Shown here piece by piece: positions 10,388 through 22,803 of a stretch of DNA of 39,196 nt. Both the position numbers and the translations under genes were made by a program. Within the stretch, counting starts at the first letter, position 1; each line of letters starts with the position of its first letter. Origin of the DNA: an uncultured Oxalicibacterium sp. (GTDB taxonomy: Bacteria; Pseudomonadota; Gammaproteobacteria; Burkholderiales; Burkholderiaceae_D); assembly GCF_913776015.1 (NCBI RefSeq), contig NZ_CAJYMD010000029.1, positions 1-39,196 on the forward strand, in the 5' to 3' direction. The notes beneath the pieces are model-generated. The model made no database searches. It was not told the DNA's origin and saw only the letters and a list, made by a program, of their open reading frames with translations.

Positions 10388-10651
10388 GAATGAAGGCGCG
10401 CCGCGGCAGGGCGCTGCAGGTTGATTGAAACGTGCCGGCATTATACCGGCTGCCGGTGACGGCTTTCGTACAGATTTGATATCAAAAAGTTACAGCAACC
10501 GCCGCACACGCCCGATCTGGCGCAAACAAGCAGTGCTTTTGTTTCTTAACGGAATTCTCACGAGCGCTTGCGTACACTCGGCTTGCCTCACCGCTGCAAG
10601 CAATCCCTCGTTTCACCCTTCTACTACAAGACAAGAACAAGGAGACAGGCC
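10388..10651. promoter_or_regulatory. Divergent control region between argS and the TerC gene
   Basis: 264 bp hold the promoters of both genes. TerC-family genes are often controlled by the yybP-ykoY manganese riboswitch; I looked for its conserved loops on the plus strand and did not find them. No confident -35/-10 pair could be assigned. The ribosome-binding site of terC (AAGGAG, 10639-10644) is the one clear element. Confidence 0.4.
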
Positions 10652-11416
10652 ATGCTTGAACTACTCACCGATCCGCACGCGTGGATGGCGTTCGTCACAC
10701 TGACCGCCCTCGAACTCGTGCTCGGTATCGACAACATCATTTTCATTTCCATCCTCGTCGATAAACTTCCCAAGGAACGGCAGGAATTCGCACGCAAGCT
10801 CGGCCTGTTCATTGCGATGTTCATGCGCATCGGTCTGCTGATGGTACTAGCGTGGATTGTCGGATTAACCGCTCCGTTGTTCACGATCATGCAGCAGGAG
10901 ATTTCCGGGCGCGACATCATTCTGATTGCCGGTGGCCTGTTCCTGATCTGGAAAAGCACGGGTGAAATCCATCAGTCATTGGAAGGTGAAGAAGGCCATA
11001 CCTCGAGCGCCGTCAAGGCGACCTTTGCTTCCGTCATCATGCAAATCATGGTGGTCGATCTGGTGTTTTCGCTGGATTCCATCATCACGGCGGTCGGTAT
11101 GGTGGATGAACTGGCCGTCATGGTTGCTGCGGTCATCGCCTCGGTCGGCTTGATGATGGTGTTCGCCGGGCCGATCGGCCGCTTCGTGTCGGCGCATCCT
11201 TCGATCAAGATTCTGGCACTGGCATTCCTGGTGGCGATTGGCGTGATCCTGATTGCCGAAGGCTTCGATCAGCACATTCCGAAAGGCTATATCTACACGG
11301 CGATGGGCTTTGCGCTGGTGGTCGAACTGATCAACATTCGCGCACGCAAGAAAACTGTTAAACCCGTGCATCTGCATGCGCCCTACGCGAGCAAAGAGGC
11401 GGACAAAGCGCCCTGA
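10652..11416 (+). CDS. TerC family integral membrane protein
   Basis: A polytopic inner-membrane protein of the TerC family, whose better studied members export manganese or take part in metal homeostasis and tellurite resistance. It has 254 residues from the ATG at 10652, with AAGGAG seven bases upstream. Family hallmarks are ELVLGIDNIIFISILVDKLP near the N-terminus and DLVFSLDSIITAVGM near the middle; the acidic residues in these two repeated helices are thought to line the ion path. About seven hydrophobic helices are visible. The cytosolic tail is basic with several histidines. A strong terminator follows 50 bp after the stop. Confidence 0.93.
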   Translation: MLELLTDPHAWMAFVTLTALELVLGIDNIIFISILVDKLPKERQEFARKLGLFIAMFMRIGLLMVLAWIVGLTAPLFTIMQQEISGRDIILIAGGLFLIWKSTGEIHQSLEGEEGHTSSAVKATFASVIMQIMVVDLVFSLDSIITAVGMVDELAVMVAAVIASVGLMMVFAGPIGRFVSAHPSIKILALAFLVAIGVILIAEGFDQHIPKGYIYTAMGFALVVELINIRARKKTVKPVHLHAPYASKEADKAP

Positions 11417-20421: not shown

Positions 20422-20830
20422 GCTTGATTTCCAGCCAACCCGAAAAGAATGCCTTGCCACCAGGGTTGAATCGGTCGGCAACCCGCTATTTTACTCCAGC
20501 GCCCGAGCCGTCAAAGCCTTCCCACCTGCGCGCCGAACTGGATTGCTACAGCAAACTTGGGATGCTCGGTACGCACGAAAGATGAACGTCCGCGCGCAAC
20601 TGTCATCGCCCACTGGATGCAACATCGTAGAAAAATGTTCGTAAACGGCTGCATCTATCTAGTATGCGATGCCCGCGCCTTGTATGCCTTAGCGGATACG
20701 CATTCTCTCAACACCCCAACCAGCAAACCCAGCGCAGTTTGCCGCCATGATGAAGCCGATTGTTCTTGCCCGGCGTTTGTTGGACAATGGCGCTCGGCAC
20801 GAAACCTCGCGCCATCCTTCAGCCCAGCCA
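20422..20830. other. Intergenic region without a supported gene
   Basis: About 410 bp between the divergent FAD dehydrogenase and SET-domain genes. Open frames here are short, lack ribosome-binding sites and look like chance frames. Promoters for both genes should lie here, but no convincing -35/-10 pair was found. Confidence 0.5.
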
Positions 20831-21337
20831 ATGCCGACACTCATGAGCGCATCCAGCAAGCCCAAATCCGCCCCGACACCTGCAGACAAACCCTACATCA
20901 TCGTTCGCAATTCGCCGATCCACGGTCGTGGCGTCTTTGCCGCGCGCAAGATACCGGCTGATACCTTGCTCATCGAATACGAAGGCGAACGCATCAGCGA
21001 GAAGGAAGCCAGCCGCCGCATGGGCGCTGATCCGGAAAATCCTTTTCACACTTTTTTCTTCAGTCTGGAAAGCGGCAAGCTTATCGATGGCGGCGACAAC
21101 GGCAGCGATGCGCGCTGGATCAACCATGCCTGCGAACCGAACTGCGAAGCGCGCGAAGAAAAAGGGCGCGTCTACATCTATTCGCTGCGTGACATCAAAA
21201 AGGGCGAGGAATTGAATTACGACTATGGTCTGGTGCTGGACGAACGCTATACCAAAAAGGTCAAAAAAAACTACGAATGTCGCTGTGGTGCGCCGACTTG
21301 CCGCCACACGATGCTGGCACCGAAGAAAAACCGTTGA
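20831..21337 (+). CDS. SET domain protein (lysine methyltransferase-like) with post-SET motif
   Basis: A 168-residue protein made almost entirely of a SET domain, the fold of SAM-dependent protein lysine methyltransferases. Seen in order are NSPIHGRGVFAARKIPADTLLIEYEGE (SET-N), RWINHACEPNCEA (the NHxCxPN SAM-binding and knot motif), GEELNYDYG (catalytic tyrosine region), and a C-terminal CRCGAPTCR, which matches the zinc-binding post-SET signature CxCxxxxC. Starts at 20831 or 20843 (MSASSKPKS) fit; an upstream frame from 20747 adds a basic stretch with little support. The bacterial substrate is unknown; DNA-binding proteins or ribosomal proteins are possible. A terminator follows directly. 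Confidence 0.88.
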   Translation: MPTLMSASSKPKSAPTPADKPYIIVRNSPIHGRGVFAARKIPADTLLIEYEGERISEKEASRRMGADPENPFHTFFFSLESGKLIDGGDNGSDARWINHACEPNCEAREEKGRVYIYSLRDIKKGEELNYDYGLVLDERYTKKVKKNYECRCGAPTCRHTMLAPKKNR

Positions 21338-21383: not shown

Positions 21384-21667
21384 TTGCCCGCTAATTTTCC
21401 GCTTCATGCAAGCCACTCATGTCGACTTCACAATACTCTCGCGGTCGCATTTGCTCCAAATCTTCCCTGATTAAGATCTGCAGCATCAACACTCAGAAGA
21501 CCGGCAATTACCCGTAAAGCAACAAATATCTTGCCGAAAAGAATATTTTTCCCATCAAGATGCCATTCACTCTAGAAGAGAACTTTCAAAGAGACAAAAA
21601 AGCGACAACTTGAGCATGCCAATATTGCATTACGTTATTCACTATTTCGATAACTGATATGGCAAAA
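21384..21667. other. AT-rich intergenic stretch with no gene seen
   Basis: About 285 bp upstream of the small-RNA pair. It is visibly richer in A and T than the rest of the window. Open frames are short and unsupported, and no hairpin with a T-run is seen. It may hold regulatory sites or decayed sequence. Confidence 0.5.
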
Positions 21668-21672
21668 GGAAA

Positions 21673-21702
21673 TTGGCTTGTAAACCTTGCCATCCCTATA
21701 CT
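21673..21702 (+). promoter_or_regulatory. Sigma70-like promoter of sRNA copy 1
   Basis: TTGGCT (21673-21678) and TATACT (21697-21702) are separated by 18 bp. The same pair with the same spacing precedes copy 2. A start around G21709 is predicted. Confidence 0.75.
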
Positions 21703-21708
21703 TCAGTT

Positions 21709-21771
21709 GTCTCCTCTATGTCTCCTCCTTTGATATAGATTTAGCCCGCTCCACCGAGCGGGCTTTTTTTT
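21709..21771 (+). ncRNA. Putative anti-Shine-Dalgarno small RNA, copy 1
   Basis: A predicted RNA of about 63 nt. Its 5' half forms a stem of 8 pairs (21715-21722, TCTATGTC, with 21732-21739, GATATAGA; one G-U pair) whose 9-nt loop is UCCUCCUUU (21723-21731). The loop contains CCUCCUUU, identical to the anti-Shine-Dalgarno of 16S rRNA, so the RNA could pair with ribosome-binding sites of mRNAs. The 3' half is a terminator: AGCCCGCTC (21743-21751) with GAGCGGGCT (21756-21764), loop CACC, then eight T residues. No open frame fits. I recall an Rfam family called betaproteobacteria toxic small RNA, found by toxicity of cloned fragments; this pair probably belongs to it or to a sister family. Confidence 0.85.
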
Positions 21772-21773
21772 GC

Positions 21774-21873
21774 TTGTCCGCCGACAGCCTTCAGGAAGCA
21801 TTTTGTAGGCAACTGAATCACCAATCTGTAACCGATCAAGTTATTTGAATTGTGAATATCGGATATCAGAAAT
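21774..21873. other. Spacer between the two sRNA copies
   Basis: A 100-bp spacer with no open frame or hairpin of note. It isolates the two transcription units, each with its own promoter and terminator. Confidence 0.5.
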
Positions 21874-21878
21874 GGAAA

Positions 21879-21908
21879 TTGGCTTGTAAACATGCCGATC
21901 CCTATACT
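21879..21908 (+). promoter_or_regulatory. Sigma70-like promoter of sRNA copy 2
   Basis: TTGGCT (21879-21884) and TATACT (21903-21908) are separated by 18 bp, as in copy 1, although the spacer bases differ. Predicted start near G21915. Confidence 0.75.
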
Positions 21909-21914
21909 TCAGTT

Positions 21915-21977
21915 GTCTCCTCTATGTCTCCTCCTTTGATATAGATTCAGCCCGCTCTCTTTAGCGGGCTTTTTTTT
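21915..21977 (+). ncRNA. Putative anti-Shine-Dalgarno small RNA, copy 2
   Basis: A predicted RNA of about 63 nt, equal in layout to copy 1. The 5' stem (21921-21928 with 21938-21945) and its loop UCCUCCUUU (21929-21937) are identical to copy 1. The terminator stem is AGCCCGCT (21949-21956) with AGCGGGCT (21963-21970), with a 6-nt loop CTCTTT in place of CACC, followed by eight T residues. Changes that leave both stems intact argue that each copy is a working gene. The unit points toward the 3' end of tag, which is transcribed the other way and ends 88 bp further on. Confidence 0.85.
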
Positions 21978-22064
21978 GCCCTTTTTTCCCTTTTCCTGCT
22001 CTACCAGTAGCCGTTCCAAAGCGAATGACCATCCTGCCGTCCGGCAATCAAGCGCTGACTTTCC

Positions 22065-22631
22065 TCATTTCTTCTTGTGCAAGTAGCAATCGCGCGCATG
22101 ATCGTTGACCATGCCGATCGCCTGCATGTAAGCGTAGACGATGGTCGAGCCGACGAATTTGAAGCCACGCTTGCCCAGATCCTTGGACAAGCGATCCGAC
22201 AATTCGGTACGGGCCGGCGTTTCAGACGTGTGTTCACGCGTATTCAGGATCGGCTTGCCATCCACATAGGCCCACAAAAAGGGATCGAGTCCACCGAGGT
22301 CATCGCGTAAACGCAGATACGCTTGCGCATTGGTGATGGTTGCCGCCACCTTCAGGCGATTGCGCACGATGCCGGGATTGGCGAGTAATTCAGCTACCTT
22401 GGCATCGTCGTAACGGGCGATTCTTTCTGCATCCCATTCATCAAAAGCCGCACGATAATTTTCGCGCTTGTTGAGGATGGTGATCCAGCTCAGACCAGCC
22501 TGTGCGCCTTCCAGATTCAAGAGTTCGAACAACTTGAGCTCGTCATGACACGGTACGCCCCATTCTTCATCGTGGTAGCGGACATACAAGGGATTGGCCA
22601 GATTCACCCAGGTGCAACGCGCGACACTCAT
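22065..22631 (-). CDS. tag: DNA-3-methyladenine glycosylase I
   Basis: Tag removes 3-methyladenine from alkylated DNA, leaving an abasic site for base excision repair. The 188-residue form starts at the ATG at 22631 (MSVARCTWV) with GGAA upstream; a TTG at 22652 is the alternative. Family features are the N-terminal cysteine in RCTWV and the YHDEEWGVPCHDELKLFELL segment, GAQAGLSWITILNKRENYR, FKFVGSTIVYAYMQAIGMVNDH, and the C-terminal H-x3-C pair (DHARDCYLHKK) that completes the zinc snap. It is a single gene, divergent from the next flavoprotein gene. Confidence 0.95.
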   Translation of the reverse strand: MSVARCTWVNLANPLYVRYHDEEWGVPCHDELKLFELLNLEGAQAGLSWITILNKRENYRAAFDEWDAERIARYDDAKVAELLANPGIVRNRLKVAATITNAQAYLRLRDDLGGLDPFLWAYVDGKPILNTREHTSETPARTELSDRLSKDLGKRGFKFVGSTIVYAYMQAIGMVNDHARDCYLHKKK

Positions 22632-22803
22632 GACGATTTCCGATTCGCTCAATTCAACAAGTCGTCATTATCGCCGAGCCTGCATTGAGGGCGCTTGATA
22701 AAATGGCGCTTTCCAAAGCTTTCTCTTTTTTCATGCGCTGCGTCTATCTTTCCACGTCATCCTTGGTCACATCCCGTATCGGCTCAACGATGCCGGTTAA
22801 ACC

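Follow-up and report, generated by a model that had tools for sequence, protein, structure and literature searches.

A tandem pair of predicted RF02278 small RNA genes conserved between SET and Tag genes in Herminiimonas/Oxalicibacterium

The window, i.e., the whole stretch of 39,196 nucleotides that was analyzed, carries two closely spaced predicted small RNA (sRNA) genes between a gene for a SET-domain protein and a gene for a 3-methyladenine DNA glycosylase. The locus has the following features:

20747-21337, plus strand: gene for a SET-domain protein, the upstream neighbour (Pfam PF00856, E 1.7e-25)
21650-21660, plus strand: upstream element of copy 1, ATAACTGATAT, with the consensus ATATC-N-GATAT, centred at about -53 from the RNA start
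21673-21702, plus strand: promoter 1, identified by sequence (TTGGCT at 21673-21678, 18 bp, TATACT at 21697-21702)
21708-21771, plus strand: sRNA copy 1, predicted from its RF02278 match (E 4.3e-13) and fold
21708-21714, plus strand: 5' tail of copy 1, UGUCUCC, complementary to GGAGACA, unpaired in the fold and proposed as the main seed
21715-21739, plus strand: hairpin 1 of copy 1, TCTATGTC, loop TCCTCCTTT (21723-21731) and GATATAGA, from the fold and pair counts over 45 sequences
21743-21771, plus strand: terminator hairpin and T-run of copy 1, from the fold
21856-21866, plus strand: upstream element of copy 2, ATATCGGATAT, the sole exact ATATCNGATAT in 259,229 bases of the genome's own sequence
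21879-21908, plus strand: promoter 2, identified by sequence (TTGGCT at 21879-21884, 18 bp, TATACT at 21903-21908)
21914-21977, plus strand: sRNA copy 2, predicted from its RF02278 match (E 1.5e-12) and fold
21914-21920, 21929-21937 and 21949-21977, plus strand: tail, loop and terminator of copy 2, from the fold
22065-22652, minus strand: gene for a 3-methyladenine DNA glycosylase (Tag-like), the downstream neighbour (Pfam PF03352, E 2.2e-77)

The two repeat units (21668-21772 and 21874-21978) are offset by 206 bp and agree at 95 of 105 positions, including an identical run of 50 bases (21692-21741 and 21898-21947). No other same-strand repeated 24-mers were found in the window. The original prediction had described this repeat, with TTGGCT-18-TATACT ahead of both RNAs and an 8-bp hairpin, a 9-nt loop and a terminator in each of them. 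Comparison of the units, inspection of the sequence and folding bore this out, whereas the predicted RNA length of 63 nt was corrected to the 64 nt of the Rfam match. Both RNAs were predicted to fold into an unpaired tail, an 8-bp hairpin whose loop is UCCUCCUUU, and a terminator hairpin with a U-run. The fold energies were -25.6 kcal/mol for copy 1 and -22.4 kcal/mol for copy 2 (z -7.2 and -6.6), and none of 200 shuffled sequences was equally stable. The -10 region of promoter 1 was conserved in the genus alignment. The host genome's own 16S rRNA ends in GGATCACCTCCTTTCT, so the CCUCCUUU of the loop equals the host anti-Shine-Dalgarno (anti-SD) sequence, as had been proposed. What had been overlooked is that the unpaired 5' tail, UGUCUCC, is a further CU-rich element. 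Each RNA contains the motif UGUCUCCUC twice at a distance of 11 nt, and in copy 1 it recurs at 21719-21727. A six-codon reading frame within the RNA, ATGTCTCCTCCTTTGATATAG, was dismissed because it is absent from most aligned members of the family.

A link to an Rfam family of toxic small RNAs of betaproteobacteria had been suggested, and cmscan identified the family as RF02278 (Betaproteobacteria toxic sRNA). Both units matched over the full length of the model with 73.2 and 71.0 bits, above the gathering cut-off of 50 bits. Both RNAs also have the family layout of a 5' CU-rich tail and two hairpins, the second being the terminator, as judged from the fold and the pair counts of the first stem. 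Judged by sequence, both units are genes of the already known RF02278 sRNA family. The family was named for toxicity in E. coli, and its Burkholderia members are described as expressed, and as toxic when cloned there (PMC4603805).

At E 0.001 these two were the only RF02278 matches in the host genome. Of 60 relatives, 48 had a match with an E value of 0.001 or lower and the cut-off was passed in 40, while 211 of 300 Burkholderiales genomes had a match at E 0.01 and 114 passed the cut-off under stricter filters, with which weak matches are lost. None of 14 control genomes outside Burkholderiales was over the cut-off, and one (Caulobacter) had a match below the cut-off at E 0.01. RF02278 is multi-copy in many Oxalobacteraceae, the highest number of matches at E 0.01 being 23, in the genome G034. 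In another genome of the same family, three copies lie head-to-tail with a spacing of exactly 185 bp (L083:1594-2030, minus strand); elsewhere five copies were found within 15 kb (L084:1972-16863) and three within 1.7 kb (L085:1825-3498). Two RF02278 units (L036:6218-6291 and L043:2368-2441) gave weak sub-threshold matches to suhB/mmgR (RF00519). Such matches to suhB/mmgR, anti-hemB (RF02837), Trp_leader, GcvB and Bp1_781 were taken as chance or as a reflection of a shared CU-rich terminator form.

The genus set comprised 13 genomes, i.e., the window genome and 12 Herminiimonas/Oxalicibacterium relatives. Searching related genomes for the core, as the original prediction had advised, revealed two copies with the same core 206-228 bp apart in all 13. 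The first 34 nt of the RNA were identical in 25 of the 26 copies, the remaining one reading ACT for ATT, and the alignment showed variation in the terminator loop, in the promoter spacer and between the copies. The SET and Tag genes flank the pair in all 12 relatives. Outside the genus, four loci (L017, L004, L036 and L043) have the SET gene with a single sRNA copy, and the Tag gene was found within the stretch at L017 only; L035 and L023, where the stretches end too near the unit, were left out of this comparison. A SET gene with a single copy beside it is likely to represent the state before duplication.

The upstream block of a copy was nearest, among other genomes, to the copy at the same position in 23 of 26 cases (1 tie, 2 nearest to the other position), a value reached in 2 of 2000 swaps. 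The corresponding numbers for the spacer were 18 of 26 (3 ties, 5 other; 6 of 2000 swaps). As both regions are nearest to same-position copies the duplication is old, and on this comparison it most likely predates the Herminiimonas/Oxalicibacterium genus. The 3' part of the units gave no orthology signal in the same test (15 of 26 same position, 10 other, 1 tie; 509 of 2000 swaps). Concerted evolution was rejected as the main cause of copy identity, since orthology is supported for the upstream block and spacer, though not for the 3' part. For window/G006 and G005/G012 the spacer distances within the own pair were 0.05-0.14 compared to a mean of 0.34 between genomes, and none of 5000 permutations was as low. 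Spacer conversion is likely to have occurred in these lineages.

We found no description of a tandem RF02278 pair in this genus in the literature searched, a search with most subscription journals outside its scope. What is new is the conserved side-by-side arrangement of twin copies between the same SET and Tag genes; the family itself is known. The analysis thus confirms a widespread Burkholderiales family in a genus for which the searched literature holds no description of it, and reveals old tandem siblings with a near-invariant RNA core. The copy numbers in Oxalobacteraceae could also be taken to mean that the units are no more than copies of some repetitive or mobile element, or repeated terminators devoid of RNA function. 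This is highly improbable given the conservation of promoter region and neighbours in 13 genomes, the covarying stem described below, and the expression reported for relatives (PMC5688073).

Upstream of the promoters, GATAT was found at -52/-53 in 24 of the 26 copies from the 13 genomes, and in these copies four or five of the five arm positions of ATATC-N-GATAT match. GATAT is followed on its 3' side by GAAA and then by a GGAAATTGG-like stretch that reaches into the -35 hexamer. A comparable upstream block was present at four single-copy loci, in two of which GGTAT replaces GATAT. It is likely, judging from this arrangement, that a regulator binds the ATATC-N-GATAT element. An upstream motif is reported to be common to three Burkholderia homologues (PMC5688073), so ATATC-N-GATAT need not be new.

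Conservation within the RNA was assessed in an alignment of 45 family members that we selected from the units fetched. GUCUCC of the tail was present in all 45 and was preceded by U as the first base in 42, whereas CCUCCUUU was present in 23 of 45. CCUCC was found within the hairpin region of 39 members, and none of the 26 tandem copies of the genus differed in the loop. In hairpin 1, 225 of 225 cells were paired, 30 had changes on both sides and the covariation score was 0.386, values that were each reached in 0 of 500 shuffles. Two of the five measures were not above the shuffles, namely double-change pairs (462 of 500) and further pair types (282 of 500). Two of the five pairs covary and three never vary.

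A dispersed third copy was identified in 9 of the 12 genus relatives (L074-L082), and the genome search gave no third RF02278 match in the window genome. All nine third copies keep GUCUCC and have lost CCUCCUUU; their loops include CUCCUCAAG, CUUCUCAAG and CUGAUCAAA, and their tail is kept save for U or C at base 1. Their promoter region differs as well, e.g., CTATGCAAATAA...TATAGT. In G027, the copy at the orthologous SET locus (L004) has UCCUCAUUU as its loop and an otherwise unchanged 34-nt core. A loop that varied while the rest was conserved had been named in the original prediction as an argument against it; this is what we observed in the nine third copies and in G027, and the opposite holds for the 26 tandem copies with their invariant loop. 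The anti-SD loop is therefore not the whole story, the 5' tail being more constant across the family than CCUCCUUU, and attention moves from the loop to the 5' seed.

We searched the genome for sites to which the tail and loop could pair. The exact complement of the full loop, AAAGGAGGA, occurs nine times, and two of these are the sRNAs themselves. Three of the other seven sites precede an ATG that opens a frame of at least 25 codons, one of which exceeds 100 codons. For GAGGAGACA, four of nine occurrences lie inside the sRNAs. The pattern AGGAGG-N2-9-ATG occurs 95 times, compared to 42 for the reversed pattern. Together with the identity of CCUCCUUU to the 16S 3' end, its presence in 26 of 26 tandem copies, the CCUCC that 39 of 45 members have in the hairpin region and the E. 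coli toxicity that gave the family its name (PMC4603805), this could mean that the loop is an anti-SD mimic serving as a broad brake, under stress, on mRNAs with very strong SDs (AAAGGAGG). We consider this unlikely. Full-loop complements are scarce, with seven besides the sRNAs, and none of the 17 occurrences of AAGGAGG in a 259-kb sample preceded a start, counting motifs at least 3 nt from the start. Moreover, CCUCCUUU is kept in 23 of 45 members against 45 of 45 for GUCUCC of the tail.

The complement of the tail, in the pattern GGAGACA-N0-8-ATG, occurs 32 times, compared to 14 for the reversed pattern. We fetched 30 of these 32 sites and dropped 12 because of a short open reading frame or a long open frame upstream. 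The remaining 18 were judged to be true gene starts. All 18 encode a protein with a Pfam family, and six are transport or outer-membrane proteins. The candidate targets are two TctC proteins, DctP, MFS, AmiS/UreI, OmpW, formamidase, FAA hydrolase, M20 peptidase, a transketolase-type protein, COX3, TerC, MCP, a response regulator, Tim44-like, TadE, DUF1989 and DUF1097. Within the window, the start region of a TerC-family gene, GGAGACAGGCCATG (10641-10654, plus strand), is a candidate target of the sRNA tail. As a comparison set we used 10 of 30 AGGAGG sites fetched from the 95; the share of transport genes was 6 of 18 for GGAGACA and 2 of 10 for AGGAGG, a difference too small to count. No enrichment of GGAGACA ahead of starts was seen in the 259-kb sample (1 of 12; rank 3532 among 7-mers), though motifs closer than 3 nt to the start were outside this count. 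In that sample it does not behave as the general ribosome-binding site (RBS) of the genome.

We call the transketolase-type protein aceE-like because of its Pfam domain and the length of its open frame, about 900 aa. GGAGAC precedes the starts of aceE-like and TctC in 13 of 13 genomes each, the window genome included, and the longer GGAGACA in 10 of 13 each. The two genes were picked because the motif is present in the own genome, and SDs in general are conserved anyway. The sole control gene for this conservation was tctB, which is incomplete in many of the stretches compared.

Altogether, these observations make it quite probable that the two units are autonomous sibling RF02278 sRNAs which stem from a duplication older than the genus and act in trans, through tail and loop, on SD regions. 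Each copy would be transcribed from its own promoter, in response to some presumed physiological signal, into an RNA of about 64 nt that starts with the unpaired seed UGUCUCC and carries the second CU-rich element UCCUCCUUU in the loop of its first hairpin. Hfq would probably engage the U-run of the terminator. The tail is predicted to pair with GGAGAC(A), and the loop with AGGAGG, at the SD region of chosen mRNAs, and this pairing would keep the 30S subunit from binding. Genes of uptake and central metabolism, e.g., aceE-like and TctC, are the likely targets, and the pair probably turns off such genes by covering their RBSs. Published work on relatives, like the conservation found here, suggests that tail and loop mask RBSs. 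A preprint reports that S17, which depends on Hfq, represses BP2158 via Site 1 at its 5' end, as tested by compensatory mutations (PMC11722255), and overexpression of ncS27 is reported to slow growth (PMC5688073). Of the original proposal that these RNAs block or tune initiation, the family, the anti-SD loop and a probable action at RBSs stand, but a central role of the loop and AAAGGAGG sites is not supported. Since both the RF02278 family and RBS masking have already been published, the pair is less surprising than that proposal held.

Protein-titrating RNAs have repeated motifs and duplicated genes. The presence of UGUCUCCUC twice per RNA and the duplication of the RNA gene would thus also fit an RNA that mainly titrates a protein, e.g., Hfq or another RNA-binding protein, with the repeated CU-rich motifs as binding sites. 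We regard this as improbable, because complementary SDs are kept in two candidate targets and a compensatory-mutation test has been published for S17 (PMC11722255).

The proposed pairing of the tandem siblings with SD regions resembles what is described for three known systems. The Burkholderia double-hairpin RNAs of RF02278, ncS03, ncS05, ncS27 and ncS62, likewise have a 5' CU-rich tail, a CU-rich loop and a terminator hairpin, and RBS pairing has been predicted for them (PMC5688073). Their copies are stated by Sass et al. not to be in tandem (PMC5688073), whereas we found a conserved tandem pair with a near-identical core and its own upstream element.

In Bordetella S17/S17S, Site 1 at the 5' end and Site 2 in a loop are reported to pair with RBSs (PMC11722255, preprint). 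The short form S17S, of 67 nt, is cut by RNase E out of a 190-nt RNA according to the same source, whereas each RNA predicted in the window has a promoter right in front of it. This consensus-like promoter immediately 5' of both predicted RNAs would speak against a processed 5' end of the S17 type. Sequences of the UGUCUCCUCCACCCUCCUCCUUUGGUGG type have no such promoter box adjoining the RNA in the stretches examined, and their hairpin 1 stem differs from that of the window pair. This promoter-less type, present in many genomes, may be the counterpart of S17S, an assignment set by the description of S17 rather than by its letters.

RF02278 matches were examined in six genomes of one Burkholderiales family. 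Four of these had two sub-cut-off matches on the same strand (30.0-36.4 bits) 197-405 bp apart, the fifth had two that lie about 4 kb from each other on opposite strands, and a single match was found in the sixth. The DNA uptake sequence occurs two to seven times per 3-kb locus in the four tandem genomes and is absent from the loci of the other two; on this ground we take the four to be Neisseria-like. Tandem sub-threshold matches that resemble NmsRA/NmsRB and have an extra 5' stem-loop were observed at L127, L129, L131, L133 and L145-L147. The Neisseria siblings NmsRA/NmsRB (NgncR_162/163) are described as a tandem pair with TCC at 32-34 and 43-45 that targets RBSs of metabolic genes (PMC5362039, PMC9973317), and the likeness of the Burkholderia RNAs to them in structure was noted by Sass et al. 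(PMC5688073). The window RNAs share with them the tandem near-identical pair, present in all 13 genus genomes, and two anti-SD motifs 11 nt apart, the second in a loop. The Neisseria-like loci have two UCUCC motifs with the same 11-nt distance, matching the published NmsRA spacing. They differ from the window RNAs in an extra 5' stem-loop, SL1, before the first anti-SD, for which the window RNAs have no room, as five bases separate the end of the -10 hexamer from the predicted RNA. No SET or Tag gene was found near the four Neisseria-like loci tested; a shared locus was therefore rejected, and the tandem state probably arose separately.

It is conceivable, though we put it forward tentatively, that the ancient genus-fixed pair with its own promoters and the rare palindrome ATATC-N-GATAT acts as a master switch that controls carbon uptake and the entry of pyruvate through a GGAGAC-type SD code, and that NmsRA/B belong to the same superfamily as divergent members which became tandem separately. 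The sequences and structures described here form a bridge between the RF02278 RNAs and the Neisseria sibling sRNAs by which a shared ancestry becomes testable.
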